Shown here one piece after another: positions 50,489 through 63,177 of a DNA stretch of 64,000 bases. The translations under genes were made by a program, and so were the position numbers. Every line of letters starts with the position of its first letter. Within the stretch, counting starts at the first letter, position 1. Origin of the DNA: Ehretia macrophylla (taxonomy: Eukaryota > Streptophyta > Magnoliopsida > Boraginales > Ehretiaceae); assembly GCA_037974665.1 (NCBI GenBank), contig CM075773.1, forward strand, positions 34,701,080 to 34,765,079. Reading direction: 5' to 3'. The notes under the pieces are model-generated. The model had not been told where the DNA came from, did no database searches, and worked only from the letters and a program-made list of their open reading frames with translations.

Positions 50489-51709
50489 GTTACCAATGCT
50501 TCTATTCCATCAAGCTTGTGATCATCCATCAAAATAAATGAATTCTTAGATGGGGGAGCGGCTAAACTCACCCTTATTGGCCTTCCCCATCCAAAATCAA
50601 AATGGTATGTTGGGAATCTGCAAAAGCTACTACATTATATCCATCAATGTCATTCTGGCCTTGCAAAACATTGATCTGTTCAGCATCTTCAACAATTGTT
50701 GAGGCAATGTCATTTCCTTTTATCCCTTTGTATTTCTCGCATTTTTGTACTTTCATTCTCCTTATTTCGCTAACCAATCTAGAAAAATTCTTCCTTCCCT
50801 CATCGGTTGTTGATACATGACATGGAGAAACAAAATTTCCTACATAATTTTGTGTAGATGGTAGTCCTATCAGTTCGCGCAAGTTCGCAATGAAGGCTAA
50901 CGCAGATGGTTTGAGTGATCCAGAACATTCCATGGCTGCAGACATGGCACATTTGTAAAGAAGTGCACTCACAACCTCAACTCGGGTAGGGTTCTGCACT
51001 CCAGATTCAGCAGTAGCCTTAGCCTTGAGCTGACTTAATTTTTCTAAGCCAAATACGTATCTCCTGGTAATAATACATTGCTGCTCTTGCTTCATATCCA
51101 ACAATGGACTAATTGATGCATCATCATTAGGGGGTAAGATAGATGCGATTTTCGCATGATTGACGAGCCATAGCAGCCCAATCGTTGATAAAGTTGCATA
51201 ATGTGTATCCATCACCAAGCTTATGATTCATGCACACACTAAGTGCTTTTCCCCCACAATCGAAATGGCTAAGTTGAGCAACTACAAGACTAGATTGATC
51301 ATGTCCTGGACTCCAAGGTAAGCGACTAGGAAAGATGATATCGTGAGGATTGATGTTACCTTCTTTAAGAATTTCAGACATTTTGCATTTGATTCGCACT
51401 TCCAAGAATGTAGCTCCCATGTCATTGCAATTTACGAAGATGTTGTCTGTTAATGTTCCAGCAAATGGGTAGTAGGAGGCTAGGGTTTTTGACAGTGATT
51501 CTTCAAGAAGGAAGGATATTTGAGTGGTGTTATCTTGGTGTTTATGATGCTGGTTGGGATAGAATAAGGCCATGGGAATATACCTGCTAGTCATTAGTTC
51601 ATCGAGTAAAGAGAGCTTGTAATTTCTGAGAGAAGGTGGTGTTGATGTGCAATGAGGGTTTTACAAACTTTTTGGAAATCAATTGAAATCTCGATGAAGA
51701 TGAAGCCAT

Positions 51710-52835
51710 TGCAATCCTTCATCAAATTGTATTACTATTTGCACTTCCTCGTCTTCTAGCTTTATCACTATATATATAGCCTAGACCTAGATCCTGATCA
51801 AAAATATTGGTGGGCACCTATTCATTTTTCTCACTTTCTTTCTTCTTAAGACATGATTTAAAAGATGCAACGCGGATCCAAGCGGGTATAAATGAGTATG
51901 AAAGAATTTACGTCTCCTAGGTTTACCATTATATATATAGGCCAGACAAAGTTTTTGATCAAATTGCAAACAAATTCTCGTGTATCTTACACTATCTCTT
52001 TTGACTTCTTATTTTAAGGATCCGACATCTACAAATGAGTTGTTCAATTGATTTTGACTTTATGTTGCAATCAACAAAGGAATTTATAATTGAACCCAAG
52101 ATTGTTGTTGAAGCTACAATGGTGAGACCCTAATCCATTGAATCGGTCATCAAGTGGCCCTTCCCTCGATATGATATTTTGTTGCAGGACTTAAAATTAA
52201 AATTGTTTTGAAGATTAAAAATTATTAAAAATAATTTTATACAACAATTTTCGAGGGTTACATGTGATTTAATTACAAAATTTTTACTGCAACAGTTTTT
52301 TTTTTTTTAAATAAACAATATTTTTTTTTTAAATAATAAACAACTATTTTTAAACTGTTGCAATTAAATCTATCCAACCTAGACAGCGTTAGCACAAAAG
52401 TGATGCTATAACACCTATTCTTTTTGGAAGTCTTTTCTCGAATTCACGGTAATGCACGTTACAGACAATTTGGAGTTGCGCTTCTCTATGCACCACCGCT
52501 GAAATTGTCGCTACTAGTATTCTGCAAAGAAATTATTGTTGTTGCTTGTGTCGTACAAATCTCTACATGTTGATTCAAGCTAGGCATTAGCTTTCTTCTT
52601 GGTTTGACTGTTTGACTTAATTATTTATTGTTACCTCTCCACTAATACATGCCATGAGTTCCCTTAGGTTGTTGACTTTGATTCACGCTTGGCATTTGAT
52701 TTCTTCTTGGTTGAGTGATCGACTTTTCTCAATAAAAAAAAAATATTTATATATGATAAACGTAGAAGATAATAAATAATTTTGTAAACTTCTTTCTAAA
52801 AGTTTAAATTTTTAAATGAGATAGTAAATTAATAT
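51710..52835. other. Upstream region of BAHD3, then gene-free DNA
   Basis: 51710-52040 resembles the promoter region of BAHD1 (CACTTCCT..GTCTTCT and a TATATATA run near 51771-51778). Beyond that is AT-rich DNA with a small foldback at about 52268-52371 (GATTTAATTACAA against its inverse). A dispersed-repeat piece lies near 52745-52830. No gene. Confidence 0.5.
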
Positions 52836-57653: not shown

Positions 57654-57672
57654 CACTACAAAAAAAATTAGA
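57654..57672 (+). repeat. CACTA terminal inverted repeat, left end
   Basis: CACTACAAAAAAAATTAGA, the family signature at the start of the element. Its partner lies outside the window. Confidence 0.88.
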
Positions 57673-57674
57673 TT

Positions 57675-57960
57675 TTGCGACGGACCGTCGCCAATATGGC
57701 GACGGTACAGTGAAGGAAAATTTTGACACAAATTTTGTGACGGAAAAGTGACGATACAGTTACGGGCAACAAATACTGTCACCGAGCCGTCACTAACAGT
57801 GACGGCTTATTAGCCGTCACTCATTCGGTGATGGCCCAGATATGACCGTCACTAATTTGGTGACGGTTCAGTGACAAGTTTGTCCCCTTCCGATATATAG
57901 AAACGGTTTGGTGACGGTACGGTGACAGTCTGTCACCATGCCTTCACCAAATAGTTTGCC
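57675..57960. repeat. Subterminal GTGACGG array
   Basis: At least ten copies of GTGACGG, GCGACGG or their inverses. Several are paired as hairpins: GCGACGGACCGTCGC near 57678, and AGCCGTCACT with AGTGACGGCT near 57788-57810. Such arrays bind the accessory transposition protein (TNPA in En/Spm). The binding here is inferred. Confidence 0.75.
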
Positions 57961-58189
57961 TCGCAATTTGCCATATTTCTTTTAACGAATAACGTCTTTA
58001 AACACTGAGTAACAATATCAGTTACTCAGTGTTTCAGTGACAATACCAATTACTCATGTATTCTTAACTTCGAGTATATAAGTAGTCATTATTTAAACAC
58101 AATTTGTAAATACCACCATTAAATTTGTCTACATAGTTTTTACTACAATATTATAGAAATTTCATAACATAATTTACAATGAACAAGAT

Positions 58190-58350: not shown

Positions 58351-58563
58351 TCACTCGAACAACTTCGGCAGAAGGATCCGATACATTTGCTCCACATTCC
58401 TTTGATGGTGTTGAGCCATCGAAATGTAACCATCTTCTTTTGGTGGTTTGTTTAGATCAAATCTACCTTCAACTCTGCTACTGCTTGCCTTCGATAAATC
58501 ACATTTCTTTGTCGTTTTCTCTTTTTTCACGGTGACCCACTCACCTTGAACTTCCTTACTCAT
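58351..58563 (-). CDS. Small protein gene inside the CACTA element, unknown function
   Basis: Frame of 70 codons reading toward the CACTA left end. An in-frame TAA lies two codons before the ATG, so the start is well defined. A TATA box (58641-58653) lies ~80 bp upstream and AATAAA lies downstream, so it has the outline of a complete small gene. The product is hydrophilic. It begins MSKEVQGEWVTVKKEKTTKK, is lysine-rich in the first third, then has RFDLNKPPKED, and ends with a predicted helix (QRNVEQMYRILLPKLFE). No signal peptide, membrane segment or zinc motif. A strong splice-donor-like AAG/GTGAGT lies just after codon 5, so the true first exon might be shorter. I recognise no family. It could be a TNPA-like accessory protein fragment, a captured host exon or chance. 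Confidence 0.4.
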   Translation of the reverse strand: MSKEVQGEWVTVKKEKTTKKCDLSKASSSRVEGRFDLNKPPKEDGYISMAQHHQRNVEQMYRILLPKLFE

Positions 58564-58640
58564 CGTTTAGTTTGATATTTAAGTATCGATGAATAAAGAT
58601 GGCTGTAAATATGGATGTCTTGAACATGCGGGATGGTTTA

Positions 58641-58653
58641 CTCTTTATATAGA
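58641..58653 (-). promoter_or_regulatory. TATA box facing left, for the 70-codon gene
   Basis: Minus-strand TCTATATAAAGAG, a canonical plant TATA box ~80 bp from the ATG at 58563. It sits at the left edge of the hairpin chain. Confidence 0.55.
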
Positions 58654-58739
58654 ACTCAAATGAGTGAAAAGTTGGCTACGGCAGGGTGAGGGGTCTTTCT
58701 CCAAATTACTGGTGCCATCTTCACGTGACTTCCAACATT

Positions 58740-59520
58740 GGAGACGGGCTAGAGACGGGTTGCCAATCTCCATAATGGAGACGGCTTTTCCCGTCTCCAA
58801 TGGAGACGGGCTGGCGACAGTAGGCAGTCACAATGTTCGAGATGGGCGTGACGCCCGTCTCCATGTTGGACGCCCGTCTCCAAAAATGGAGAAGGGCGGC
58901 TGCCGGTCTTCATTTTGGAGACGGGCAGATGTCCGTCTCCAATTAGAGGCCCACAAACGTGGGCCTCTATAACTGGAGAGGGGCGTCCGCCCCTCTCCAG
59001 TTTAGAGACGGGTAGATGCCCGTCTCCAATTAGAATAAATGGAGACGGGCATCAACCCGTCTCCATGTTAGAGACGGGCTGAATCCCGTCTCCAAAAGAG
59101 CCCCACAAACGTGGGCCTCTCTAAATGGAGACGGGAGTCAGCTTGTCTCCATGTTGAGACGGGCGTGAGCCCGTCTCCAATAAGAGGCCCACAAACGTGG
59201 GCCTCTCTAAATGTAGACGAGCATGCCCATCTCCATGTTCAAACGTGGGCCTCTATAACTGGAGACGGGTAATTGGAGACGGGCTGATGCCCGTCTCCAG
59301 TTTCGTCTCCTAATTAAAGAGGCCTACCGCGTGGGCCTCTTTAATTGTAATTGGAGACGGGCTGATACCCGTCTCCAGTTTGGAGAAGGGCACCGGCCCG
59401 TCTCCAAATTAAAGAGGCCCACCGTGTGGGCCTCTTTAATTGGGCGACAGCCCTGGCTCATGCAGGGCTGTCGCCCAATTGATTTCATTTAACAGAGGGC
59501 AGAATCTGTTCTGCCCTCTG
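58740..59520. repeat. Chain of about twenty hairpins, GC-rich
   Basis: A GC-rich island in AT-rich DNA. It is made of consecutive short hairpins with stems of 9-18 bp and loops of 2-7 bp. Two stem families alternate: GGAGACGGGC / GCCCGTCTCC and AGAGGCCCAC / GTGGGCCTCT. The right end adds stems used only once, such as ATTGGGCGACAGCCCTG (59438-59479) and CAGAGGGCAGAA (59493-59520). Examples with perfect arms are 58945-58968, 58972-59001, 59183-59206, 59407-59439 and 59493-59520. No coding sequence. It lies between two outward-facing TATA boxes. Confidence 0.92.
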
Positions 59521-59592
59521 TGACGTTTTTTTTTTAAAACTTTGAAAAAAACCCTACCCCACCCCTCCCTCATCCTCTCCTTCCCCCCTCTT

Positions 59593-59598
59593 TATATA
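59593..59598 (+). promoter_or_regulatory. TATA box facing right, for the transposase
   Basis: TATATA within CTTTATATACCC, just right of the hairpin chain and followed by a pyrimidine-rich start region. The transposase ATG is ~1.4 kb downstream, so a leader with one or more introns is implied. Confidence 0.5.
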
Positions 59599-59669
59599 CC
59601 CTTCTCTTGCAACGATTTTGAGGTAATACCTTGGTTTTTTTTGGTTTTTATACATGTTATATATGTATG

Positions 59670-60990: not shown

Positions 60991-63177
60991 ATGTATCAGA
61001 AATGGATTGACGGTAATCTTAATGAGGCATTTATCCAAGGTGTTTCGGATTTTGTATACTTCGCAAGTAACCAACATTATTATATGGATGGCACCAAGAT
61101 AAGATGTCCATGTGTAAGATGCCGAAACTTAAAATTCCAAACAACAGGAATTGTAGTAGATCATTTGTATAAGAAGGGTTTTATGCCTTTTTACTATCAA
61201 TGGATTGCACATGGCGAACATGTGTATAACAATAGTGGTCAATGTGCACCAACATGGGCGTATAATGAAGAACAACAACTTGATCAAACGAATAATTACC
61301 GAACATTAGTTTATGACGCTGCCGGTATGCAGTTCATCAACGATCACAATGTTGAGGTTAATGAAGAACCTAACATGGAAGCACAAGCATTTTTTGAGTT
61401 GTTGAAAGCCGCTAATAGGCCATTGTTTGATGGTTTTTCTAAACTTACAAAATTGTCAGCCGTGGCTCGTTATATGAATATGAAGTCCGAACATAATATG
61501 AGCAACTCCCTATTTAACAGGTTCGTAGAAGAATTAAAGGAAGTGATGCCCGAGAATCATAACTTGCCTGAAAACCTTTATAGATTTAAGAAACTAATCA
61601 AGCTATTGGGGTTGGGATATCAGAAGATCGATGTTTGTGTAAATGGATGCACCTTGTTTTATAAAGATCAGAGACTCATGGAAAATTGTCAGCGCTGTGG
61701 CCACGCACGCTTTAAGGAAATAGCTGGTGATAAAAAACGGGGCAAGCCTATTTCCCTCAAACAGTTAAGATATTTCCCTATGACACAAATGTTGAAAAGA
61801 TTGTACATGTCAACTGCTACAGCGAGTCACATGACGTGGCACAAATATCACAATGTGGAGAATGGACAGATTTGTCATCCATCAGATGCCGAATCTTGGA
61901 AATATTTTGACTCCGTGTATCCAGAATTCGCAGCAGAACCAAGAAATGTTCGGCTAGGCCTTTGTTCAGATGTTTTTAACCCGTACAATTCAAATGTTAA
62001 ACCTTACTCTTGCTGGCCAGTTATCATGATCCCATACAACCTTCCACCATGGATGTGCATGAAGGATCCCGTAATGTTTTTGACACTAATCATTCCTGGT
62101 CCCAAGCATCCCGGTCAGAATATTGATGTCTACCTAGAGCCTCTAATAGATGAATTGATAACTCTATGGTCGGAAGGAACATTATGTTATGATATTGCTA
62201 CGAAGTCTAATTTTTGTTTGAGGGCAGTCTTGATGTGGACAATAAATGACTTCCCGGCTTATGGTATGTTGTCGGGATGGAGCACACATGGGAGGTTATC
62301 GTGTCCTATTTGCATGGAAAAGTCAAAAGCTTTTCGCTTACCAGCGGGGAAGAAGCATTCATTCTTTGACTGTCATCGTCAATTCTTACCACATAATAGT
62401 TCATTAAGACGTGACATAAATTTTTTTTTCAGGGATAGGCATGAGACATCTACACCTCCACCACGATTATCTGGACAACAAATTTGGGAACGAGTGCAAA
62501 ATTTACCAACAATCCAAGAGATATATTGCAAAAAGCTAAATGAGTTTGGTATTGATCATAATTGGACGAAAAGAAGTATTTTTTGGGAATTGTCATACTG
62601 GAAGACGCATCTTGTTCGTCACAACTTAGACGTGATGCATATTGAGAAAAATATTTTTGACAATGTATTCAATACTATAATGGCAGTTAAGGGTAAGACT
62701 AAAGATAACCTTCAAGCTCGAAAATACATGTACATTTTTTGCAATTGGCCAGAGTTGTGCGAAAACAATACGAACATGTTAGGTGTATACACCCTCACCA
62801 GAGAAAAGAGAAAATTGCTACTACAATGGGTTGAAGACATAAAATTTCCCGATGGTTATGCTTCTAATCTATCAAATTGTGTCGATATGAAGGATTTGAA
62901 AATGTCACACATGAAGAGTCACGATTGTCATATCTTTATGGAGAGACTACTTCCCATTGCATTGAGAGAATTAATGCCGAAACAGGCTGCAAAGCCATTT
63001 GCTGAACTGAGCTTATTTTTTACCAATCTATGTTGTTCAACATTGCAAAGAACCGATTTGGAAATGATGCAAGATAATATTGTCATGACGCTGTGCAAAC
63101 TGGAGAAGATATTGCCTCCTGCATTATTTGAGTCAATGGAGCATTTACTTGTCCATTTGGTTTATGAAGCTATATGA
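60991..63177 (+). CDS. CACTA TNP2-type transposase
   Basis: Frame of 728 codons. Residues 3-76 form the Transpos_assoc domain (MYQKWIDGNL, CPCVRCRN, HLYKKGF). A linker follows, with CVNGCTLFYKD and C-X2-C (ENCQRCGHARF) at about 216-241. The core transposase (Transposase_21 family) spans about 260-560. It includes LGLCSDVFNPY (323-332), PYNLPPWMCMK, IIPGPKHPGQNIDVYLEPLIDEL, WTINDFPAYGMLSGWSTHG and HNLDVMHIEKNIFDNVF (545-560). This enzyme cuts at the element's ends in the nucleus. The start at 60991 matches where the family begins. The frame stops at 63175 within the DUF4218 domain, which continues in the same frame after three stops, so the full-length protein is not made. Confidence 0.92.
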   Translation: MYQKWIDGNLNEAFIQGVSDFVYFASNQHYYMDGTKIRCPCVRCRNLKFQTTGIVVDHLYKKGFMPFYYQWIAHGEHVYNNSGQCAPTWAYNEEQQLDQTNNYRTLVYDAAGMQFINDHNVEVNEEPNMEAQAFFELLKAANRPLFDGFSKLTKLSAVARYMNMKSEHNMSNSLFNRFVEELKEVMPENHNLPENLYRFKKLIKLLGLGYQKIDVCVNGCTLFYKDQRLMENCQRCGHARFKEIAGDKKRGKPISLKQLRYFPMTQMLKRLYMSTATASHMTWHKYHNVENGQICHPSDAESWKYFDSVYPEFAAEPRNVRLGLCSDVFNPYNSNVKPYSCWPVIMIPYNLPPWMCMKDPVMFLTLIIPGPKHPGQNIDVYLEPLIDELITLWSEGTLCYDIATKSNFCLRAVLMWTINDFPAYGMLSGWSTHGRLSCPICMEKSKAFRLPAGKKHSFFDCHRQFLPHNSSLRRDINFFFRDRHETSTPPPRLSGQQIWERVQNLPTIQEIYCKKLNEFGIDHNWTKRSIFWELSYWKTHLVRHNLDVMHIEKNIFDNVFNTIMAVKGKTKDNLQARKYMYIFCNWPELCENNTNMLGVYTLTREKRKLLLQWVEDIKFPDGYASNLSNCVDMKDLKMSHMKSHDCHIFMERLLPIALRELMPKQAAKPFAELSLFFTNLCCSTLQRTDLEMMQDNIVMTLCKLEKILPPALFESMEHLLVHLVYEAI

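Follow-up and report, generated by a model that had tools for sequence, protein, structure and literature searches.

What is a chain of tightly packed inverted repeats doing inside a transposable element, and is it recognised as a fold or as sequence? Such a chain occupies positions 58739-59521 of the 64,000-nucleotide stretch of Ehretia macrophylla DNA analysed here (hereafter the window). A preliminary description, made from the letters alone, had reported about twenty different hairpins between two outward-facing promoters of a CACTA element. It had proposed that the arms of each hairpin are kept complementary by selection or copied together, and that the region may be a control region, whether as a protein array, a cruciform-forming insulator or a source of small hairpin RNAs.

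The assignment to a CACTA element is well founded. The large rightward ORF matches PF02992 (Transposase_21, E 1.1e-79) and PF13963 (E 2.7e-18), and a left CACTA end lies at 57654. The chain begins 1.09 kb from this terminus, with a conserved ORF in between, which agrees with its earlier placement about 1.1 kb inside the element. The features from the left end to the transposase are the following:

57654-57671, + strand: left terminal inverted repeat, CACTACAAAAAAAATTAG, with the CACTACAAAAAA terminus at 57654
57677-57955, no strand assigned: subterminal array of a GTGACGG-type motif with a few palindromes, limits set by eye
58351-58563, - strand: leftward 70-codon ORF (MSKEVQGEW...YRILLPKLFE), conserved beside the chain in 30 of 30 copies
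58637-58655, - strand: leftward TATA box (TTCTATATAAAG), with TATATAAAG in 29 of 30 copies
58739-59521, no strand assigned: palindrome chain, kinds A and B, then C and D at the right end, from an inverted-repeat search
59583-59602, + strand: rightward TATA block (CTCTTTATATACCC), at most 4 mismatches in 20 positions in 28 of 30 copies
60991-63177, + strand: TNP2-type transposase ORF of 728 codons, with PF02992, PF13963 and partial PF13960

On its left side the element has the subterminal array of short direct and inverted repeats that characterises CACTA elements, namely the GTGACGG array, whose palindromes lie at 57684-57706, 57798-57821, 57845-57867 and 57907-57951. A 14-bp perfect palindrome (AAACACTGAGTAAC / GTTACTCAGTGTTT, 58000-58034) is located between this terminal array and the leftward ORF. 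For the right end, no match resembling the terminal inverted repeat was found in the tail of locus L039 or in L069. The transposase ORF stops after 48 of the 114 positions of DUF4218, which reflects either decay or an exon border. As to the outward-facing TATA boxes of the preliminary description, the TATA-like sequences themselves are kept on both sides in the copies, and the blocks are putative promoters on sequence grounds. Elsewhere in the window, a tandem direct duplication of about 21 kb (1122-22207 and 23067-44329, 97-98% identity) is accompanied by a third piece, 75% similar to it, at 50516-51739.

The leftward ORF had no Pfam match up to E 0.1. At least 150 matches to it were scored genome-wide (the best 150 of 1172 candidates), 119 of them without a stop. 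Pooled pN/pS is 0.63 among the 27 copies free of frame shifts; comparison with L008, a diverged copy that has a stop of its own, gives 0.42-0.50. The ORF is flagged broken in 12 of 30 copies, in L025 perhaps through a one-base offset of the cut. These values are compatible with a real protein relaxed after insertion, and we regard the ORF as a candidate transposon micro-protein. In L008 (1840-2040), part of the leftward ORF region appears again to the right of the chain, which looks like a duplication of the flank over to the other side.

The density of the chain is far beyond chance. A mechanical greedy search, in which neighbours share at most 4 bases, counts 16 hairpins in its 781 bp, whereas 40 dinucleotide shuffles gave a mean of 0.275 and never more than 2; fifteen of the hairpins end by 59520 and span 488 of the 781 bases. 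The count of 16 is low, because the greedy procedure omits at least one overlapping perfect stem (59407-59441) that is present in the fold. The three perfect-armed hairpins named previously are all found in the fold and the hairpin search, and several other arms of the chain are imperfect. The GC content is 0.54-0.56, compared with 0.13-0.41 in the flanking windows, confirming a GC-rich island in AT-rich DNA. Folding gave z-scores of -22.5 on the + strand and -22.2 on the - strand (20 shuffles per strand); any set of inverted repeats gives such values, which are thus no sign of RNA function. With up to one mismatch, GGAGACGGGC occurs 27 times in the window and 26 of these sites are inside the chain, against 0.32 expected.

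The hairpins are less diverse than had been described, since their stems fall into four kinds. Kind A, the dominant stem, is GGAGACGGGC n4 GCCCGTCTCC; kind B combines AGAGGCCCAC and GTGGGCCTCT and also has a longer AATTAAAG form; kinds C and D are the two stems at the right end, that of C being 18 bp. Four palindromes serve as reference points:

58944-58969, no strand assigned: first B-type palindrome, AGAGGCCCAC aaac GTGGGCCTCT, with TGGGCC (site II type core) on both arms
58971-59002, no strand assigned: A-type palindrome with 15-bp perfect arms, G here and in L023, C in 16 of 18 alignable copies
59438-59480, no strand assigned: C-type palindrome with 18-bp perfect arms, from the hairpin search, the copies and genome-wide counts
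59492-59521, no strand assigned: D-type palindrome at the right end of the chain, from the hairpin search and the copies

Simple patterns placed 448 of the 455 hairpins found over 30 copies of the array in kinds A to D (215 A, 78 A in outward arrangement, 112 B, 27 C and 16 D, with 7 others). The same 30 arrays hold 983 GGAGACGGG half-sites with at most one mismatch. Neighbouring half-sites face inward in 398 pairs, outward in 373 and are direct in 182, and one spacing is common to 290 of the 398 inward pairs: the arrangement is not random. In the first 95 bp or so of the chain some half-sites follow one another in direct order and no clean hairpin is formed, so that the basic unit seems to be the half-site, and the palindrome its usual arrangement. 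Genome-wide, the pattern GGAGACGGN{4,16}CCGTCTCC occurs 3896 times, against a single occurrence of the reversed control. The genome also contains other families of GGAGACGG palindromes, represented by L001 (23 hairpins in 3 kb) and L003 (12 hairpins); L001 (331-1996) belongs to a separate repeat family in which long palindromes of two types, AAAGTCCAAAGGAGACGGACCA... and TAGCACAGCACTT..., alternate.

The core of the B arms, TGGGCC, is enriched in the chain, with 9 occurrences in its 783 bp versus 15 in the remaining 63,217 bp of the window, and is found at least five times in each of the 30 arrays. The available text of two papers describes it as a known plant promoter element (PMC1832190) and lists it among TCP class I elements (PMC6037871). 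The chain contains no instance of the complete TCP consensus, GTGGGNCC.

Is the chain part of the element, or a separate element nested within it? We searched the genome (1.58 Gb, 20 contigs) with the chain and its flanks, which yielded 235 match rows, pieces counted, and scored the best 40 of 482 candidates. Thirty array copies (loci L009-L038, the first being the window's own) were obtained, all retrieved using the array itself; one further locus, L002, is a lone motif match without hairpins. The left terminal segment (57654-57960), the leftward ORF and the left promoter segment are present in 30 of 30 copies, the window's own counted. To the right, the promoter segment is matched in 29 (in one by only 28 bases), the 5' part beyond it in 26 and the segment before the transposase in 25, the remaining five loci ending before that segment or lacking it; ten of the 30 reach the transposase itself. 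In every copy the left-promoter segment is immediately followed by a TGGAGACGGG-like half-site that opens the chain, with no mismatch over its 10 positions in 23 copies, one in 6 and two in a single copy. The length of the chain varies from 533 to 1476 bp in the 29 copies with a right-promoter match, with a manually chosen right end for L012; the two C hairpins of L021 and the three of L035 show that these long chains contain the right end more than once.

Because these copies were retrieved with the chain as query, searches that did not use it weigh more. Starting from the transposase (the best 61 of 3543 candidates, or 61 of 62 rows once the second piece of one copy was dropped), we found the leftward ORF within 15 kb upstream in 40 of 61 rows, divergent in all 40, at a median distance of 2.67 kb and with three pairs more than 5 kb apart. 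Since only the best-scoring candidates were scored, here as for the ORF, absences carry no meaning. On contig C1 up to 48.72 Mb, three or more exact GGAGACGGGC sites lie 1.6-2.5 kb upstream of each of the five transposase rows. The leftward ORF accompanies 34 of 38 C palindromes of the window's form at a distance of up to 10 kb, and 5 of 20 of the other form, in every case on the expected side. The chain motif appears in the first 700 bases of 2 of the 30 transposase loci L039-L068, one being the window's own, a count that is uninformative because these loci end near the right edge of the chain. Given the fixed left boundary and the transposase-first results, we discard a nested independent element: the chain, present in all the other copies recovered, belongs to a TNP2-type CACTA family as an integral component of variable length. 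No relatives were found in the viral-contig and genome-contig collections.

If pairing of the arms were under selection, changes in one arm should be matched in the other, and within the family they are not. Relative to the window's arms, up to 3 mismatches were accepted in the 5' arm and 4 in the 3' arm (for C, 5 and 6; for D, 4 in each). The position of the 3' arm was chosen by its agreement with the window's 3' arm, which entails a slight bias against detecting paired changes. In 453 A hairpins we counted 657 one-side changes, 58 paired non-complementary changes and only 13 paired complementary ones, whereas random dealing of the 3' arms predicts 21.2 (proportion of shuffles reaching 13: 0.99). 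The outward A arrangement behaves likewise (n=378; 678 one-side changes, 15 paired versus 21.1 expected). The 33 C hairpins show 45 one-side changes and none paired, and the 7 D hairpins 4 one-side changes and 1 paired, versus 0.15 expected. An apparent compensation in B (11 paired cells versus 2.4 expected) was rejected, as 8 cells came from sequences mistaken for B; the 167 B hairpins have 138 one-side changes and 3 genuine paired ones. Arm changes comprise 442 transitions and 357 transversions in A, and 34 and 13 in C.

These tests have a particular reach. Over the stretch of the transposase ORF, stops are present in 58 of 62 genomic rows and absent from 4, so that comparisons within the family mostly see decay after insertion. 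The arms of C hairpins vary at 47 of 1188 sites and the loops at 11 of 231, about equally, and site-by-site constraint is therefore not visible in these copies. The proposal that selection keeps the arms complementary thus finds no support within the family. By the yardstick of the preliminary description itself, compensated arm changes, this weakens the readings of the chain as cruciform or as folded RNA. Its other suggestion, that arms are copied together, fares better: the outer flanks of A hairpins are Watson-Crick in 268 of 453 cases versus 188.8 expected, and both arms often differ jointly between lineages.

Among A palindromes genome-wide, the pair just inside GGAGACGG is G-C in 1022, A-T in 852, G-T in 97 and A-C in 84 (odds ratio 107; 2055 of 3896 anchored palindromes, the other 1841 carrying further combinations outside these counts). 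One stem pair of C is A-T in 38, G-C in 20, A-C in 5 and G-T in 10 (odds ratio 15; 73 of 288 anchored C palindromes, with 215 unresolved). The diverged relatives L004 and L008 have the G-C form of the C stem, with one mismatch elsewhere in each, and L004 has an apparent matched change in outer A/T pairs. These are counts of copies rather than of events, and the C change is of the CpG type, so the paired differences do not establish selection on pairing.

Paired differences between lineages are what one would expect if the chain were a cruciform-forming insulator or other structural DNA, in which extruded hairpins separate the two promoters. Yet one founding change per lineage could suffice to produce them, and the C pair change is a CpG-type transition; the uncompensated arm changes within the family also speak against such a role, and arms of about 10-11 bp around 4 bp also suit dimer sites. 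We consider this explanation very improbable.

Another alternative is an RNA role, in which transcripts of the chain would fold and be diced to small RNAs silencing the family, or act as a decoy. The very strong predicted fold of both strands (z of about -22) speaks for it, as does a precedent in the available text of PMC10398659, where target arrays of VANC1 and VANC6 overlap RdDM targets, less obviously so for VANC21. Strong folding of inverted repeats is, however, independent of function, and arm changes within the family are uncompensated. One-side mismatches read on the + strand as G.T/A.C number 207/159 in A, 61/35 in B and 11/22 in C, with no strand consistently preferred. A known RNA family can be dismissed, since none of the 25 Rfam matches listed at E up to 1 reaches its gathering score. 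Nor does the family show the compensatory stem changes of an RNA with conserved secondary structure; between lineages paired differences exist, but their events are uncountable. All this makes an RNA source improbable.

A stronger competitor is neutral expansion, in which slippage or unequal exchange multiplied short quasi-palindromes and template switching between arms during replication made them more perfect, with no function. It accounts for the highly variable array length, for hairpin subtypes copied as units and for the uncompensated decay within the family. It would also explain the A palindrome at 58971-59002, whose 3' arm is kept in 19 copies, 18 of them alignable: a C faces a C in 16, while in the window and in L023 a G completes the palindrome. 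This G is what copying one arm onto the other would give, at a single site and possibly in one event. Against such templated correction, the GGAGAGGGGC arm faces non-complementary partners at another site in many of the copies listed (about 188 in the arrays) and in L020. Neutral expansion also fits poorly with a left boundary fixed in all copies, with the presence of the chain under transposase-first sampling, with related stems persisting in the diverged relatives L004 and L008, and with the composition of four stem kinds. It is possible, though we think it rather unlikely.

The explanation we favour, and to which we give an even chance, is that palindromic binding half-sites make up the chain, as an internal array specific to its family and serving the divergent promoter of a TNP2-type CACTA element. 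The 70-codon ORF to its left and the transposase gene to its right point away from each other, and the array would lie in their common upstream region. Facing GGAGACGGGC half-sites across 4 bp may be bound by a putative dimeric protein, probably encoded by the element, a suggestion that draws on CACTA biology by analogy, and B palindromes may supply host TGGGCC (site II type) sites. Together, A and B sites could switch on both promoters or keep both unsilenced; the promoters, the binding protein and the anti-silencing role are all putative. The array would grow, shrink and be homogenised through repeat turnover, so that the motif persists while array length and layout change.

A motif that is kept while its pairing goes uncompensated is expected if a protein reads the sequence. 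Likewise, a kept palindromic motif without compensation after insertion, in a fixed place between two divergent genes and with rapid change in length, suits a DNA-binding dimer better than a fold, although neutral concerted evolution of a repeat could yield the same conserved motif. Of the earlier view, the membership of the chain in the CACTA element stands, while selection on arm pairing within the family, and with it cruciform or RNA folding, has lost ground. Judging from sequence, the chain is probably a control region recognised as sequence more than as a folded hairpin. A more elaborate proposal, which we regard as a long shot, is that a CACTA anti-silencing or activation system uses the chain, set between the divergent micro-gene and the transposase, as its address. 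The 70-residue protein would be part of the reader, arm-templated correction would renew the palindromes, and lineages would shift both arms and so escape host silencing and cross-talk.

Several known transposon arrays invite comparison. VANDAL elements belong to the MULE group, and the Spm repeats are 12-bp subterminal motifs. One likeness in the texts available is with soybean Tgmt*, Tgm1 and TgmR* (PMC2613891, PMC4219821), which share with our element a TNP2 transposase and a CACTA terminus, here at the left end, as well as a short motif in inverted pairs that may form a series of stem-loops and varies between families. The subterminal motifs of Tgm can form such series (PMC2613891, PMC4219821), and the Tgmt* repeats form 12 and 2 stem-loops (PMC2613891); in the same article, a legend names the Tgmt* motifs TNPA-like binding domains, while the text leaves their role as recognition sites to be determined. 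The Tgmt* arrays differ in being located within 159 and 732 bp of the ends, with one motif giving 14 of the stem-loops (PMC2613891). The Ehretia element, in contrast, has a separate GTGACGG terminal array and, about 1.1-1.9 kb inside, an internal chain of four kinds beside a divergent ORF. Its chain is thus not at the element's end, where a CACTA subterminal binding array would be.

Arabidopsis VANDAL elements are comparable in array architecture alone. According to the available text, the tandem motif arrays to which VANC proteins bind lie in non-coding portions of VANDAL elements (PMC5735166, PMC10398659); they are rapidly changing arrays of short motifs that transposons can use for anti-silencing (PMC5735166). 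Unlike the chain, the VANC targets consist of tandem motifs, come from a different element group and have a binding protein that is known. Maize Spm offers an analogy for the putative activity itself, an element-encoded protein activating its own element: in the portions available, TnpA binds subterminal repeats (PMC2613891) and is reported, in work cited by PMC10398659, to activate Spm, an effect correlated with demethylation.

In the literature searched, whose coverage mostly leaves out subscription journals, none of the text available, that of the CACTA papers PMC2613891, PMC8195511 and PMC4219821 included, describes a palindrome chain in the interior of such an element, and the matches listed for the motif letters carry titles on unrelated subjects. 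Palindromic arrays are known from CACTA ends; this family has an internal one in addition to an ordinary subterminal array. CACTA repeat arrays in that literature, as far as its available text goes, are subterminal, whereas this chain is internal and lies beside a divergent ORF. The size of the family (at least 150 scored leftward-ORF matches, 288 anchored C palindromes and related lineages) makes it a testable system. With it one could ask whether transposons draw private control addresses from fast-turning arrays, and whether palindromes persist through selection or through a mutational process in which one arm is copied onto the other.
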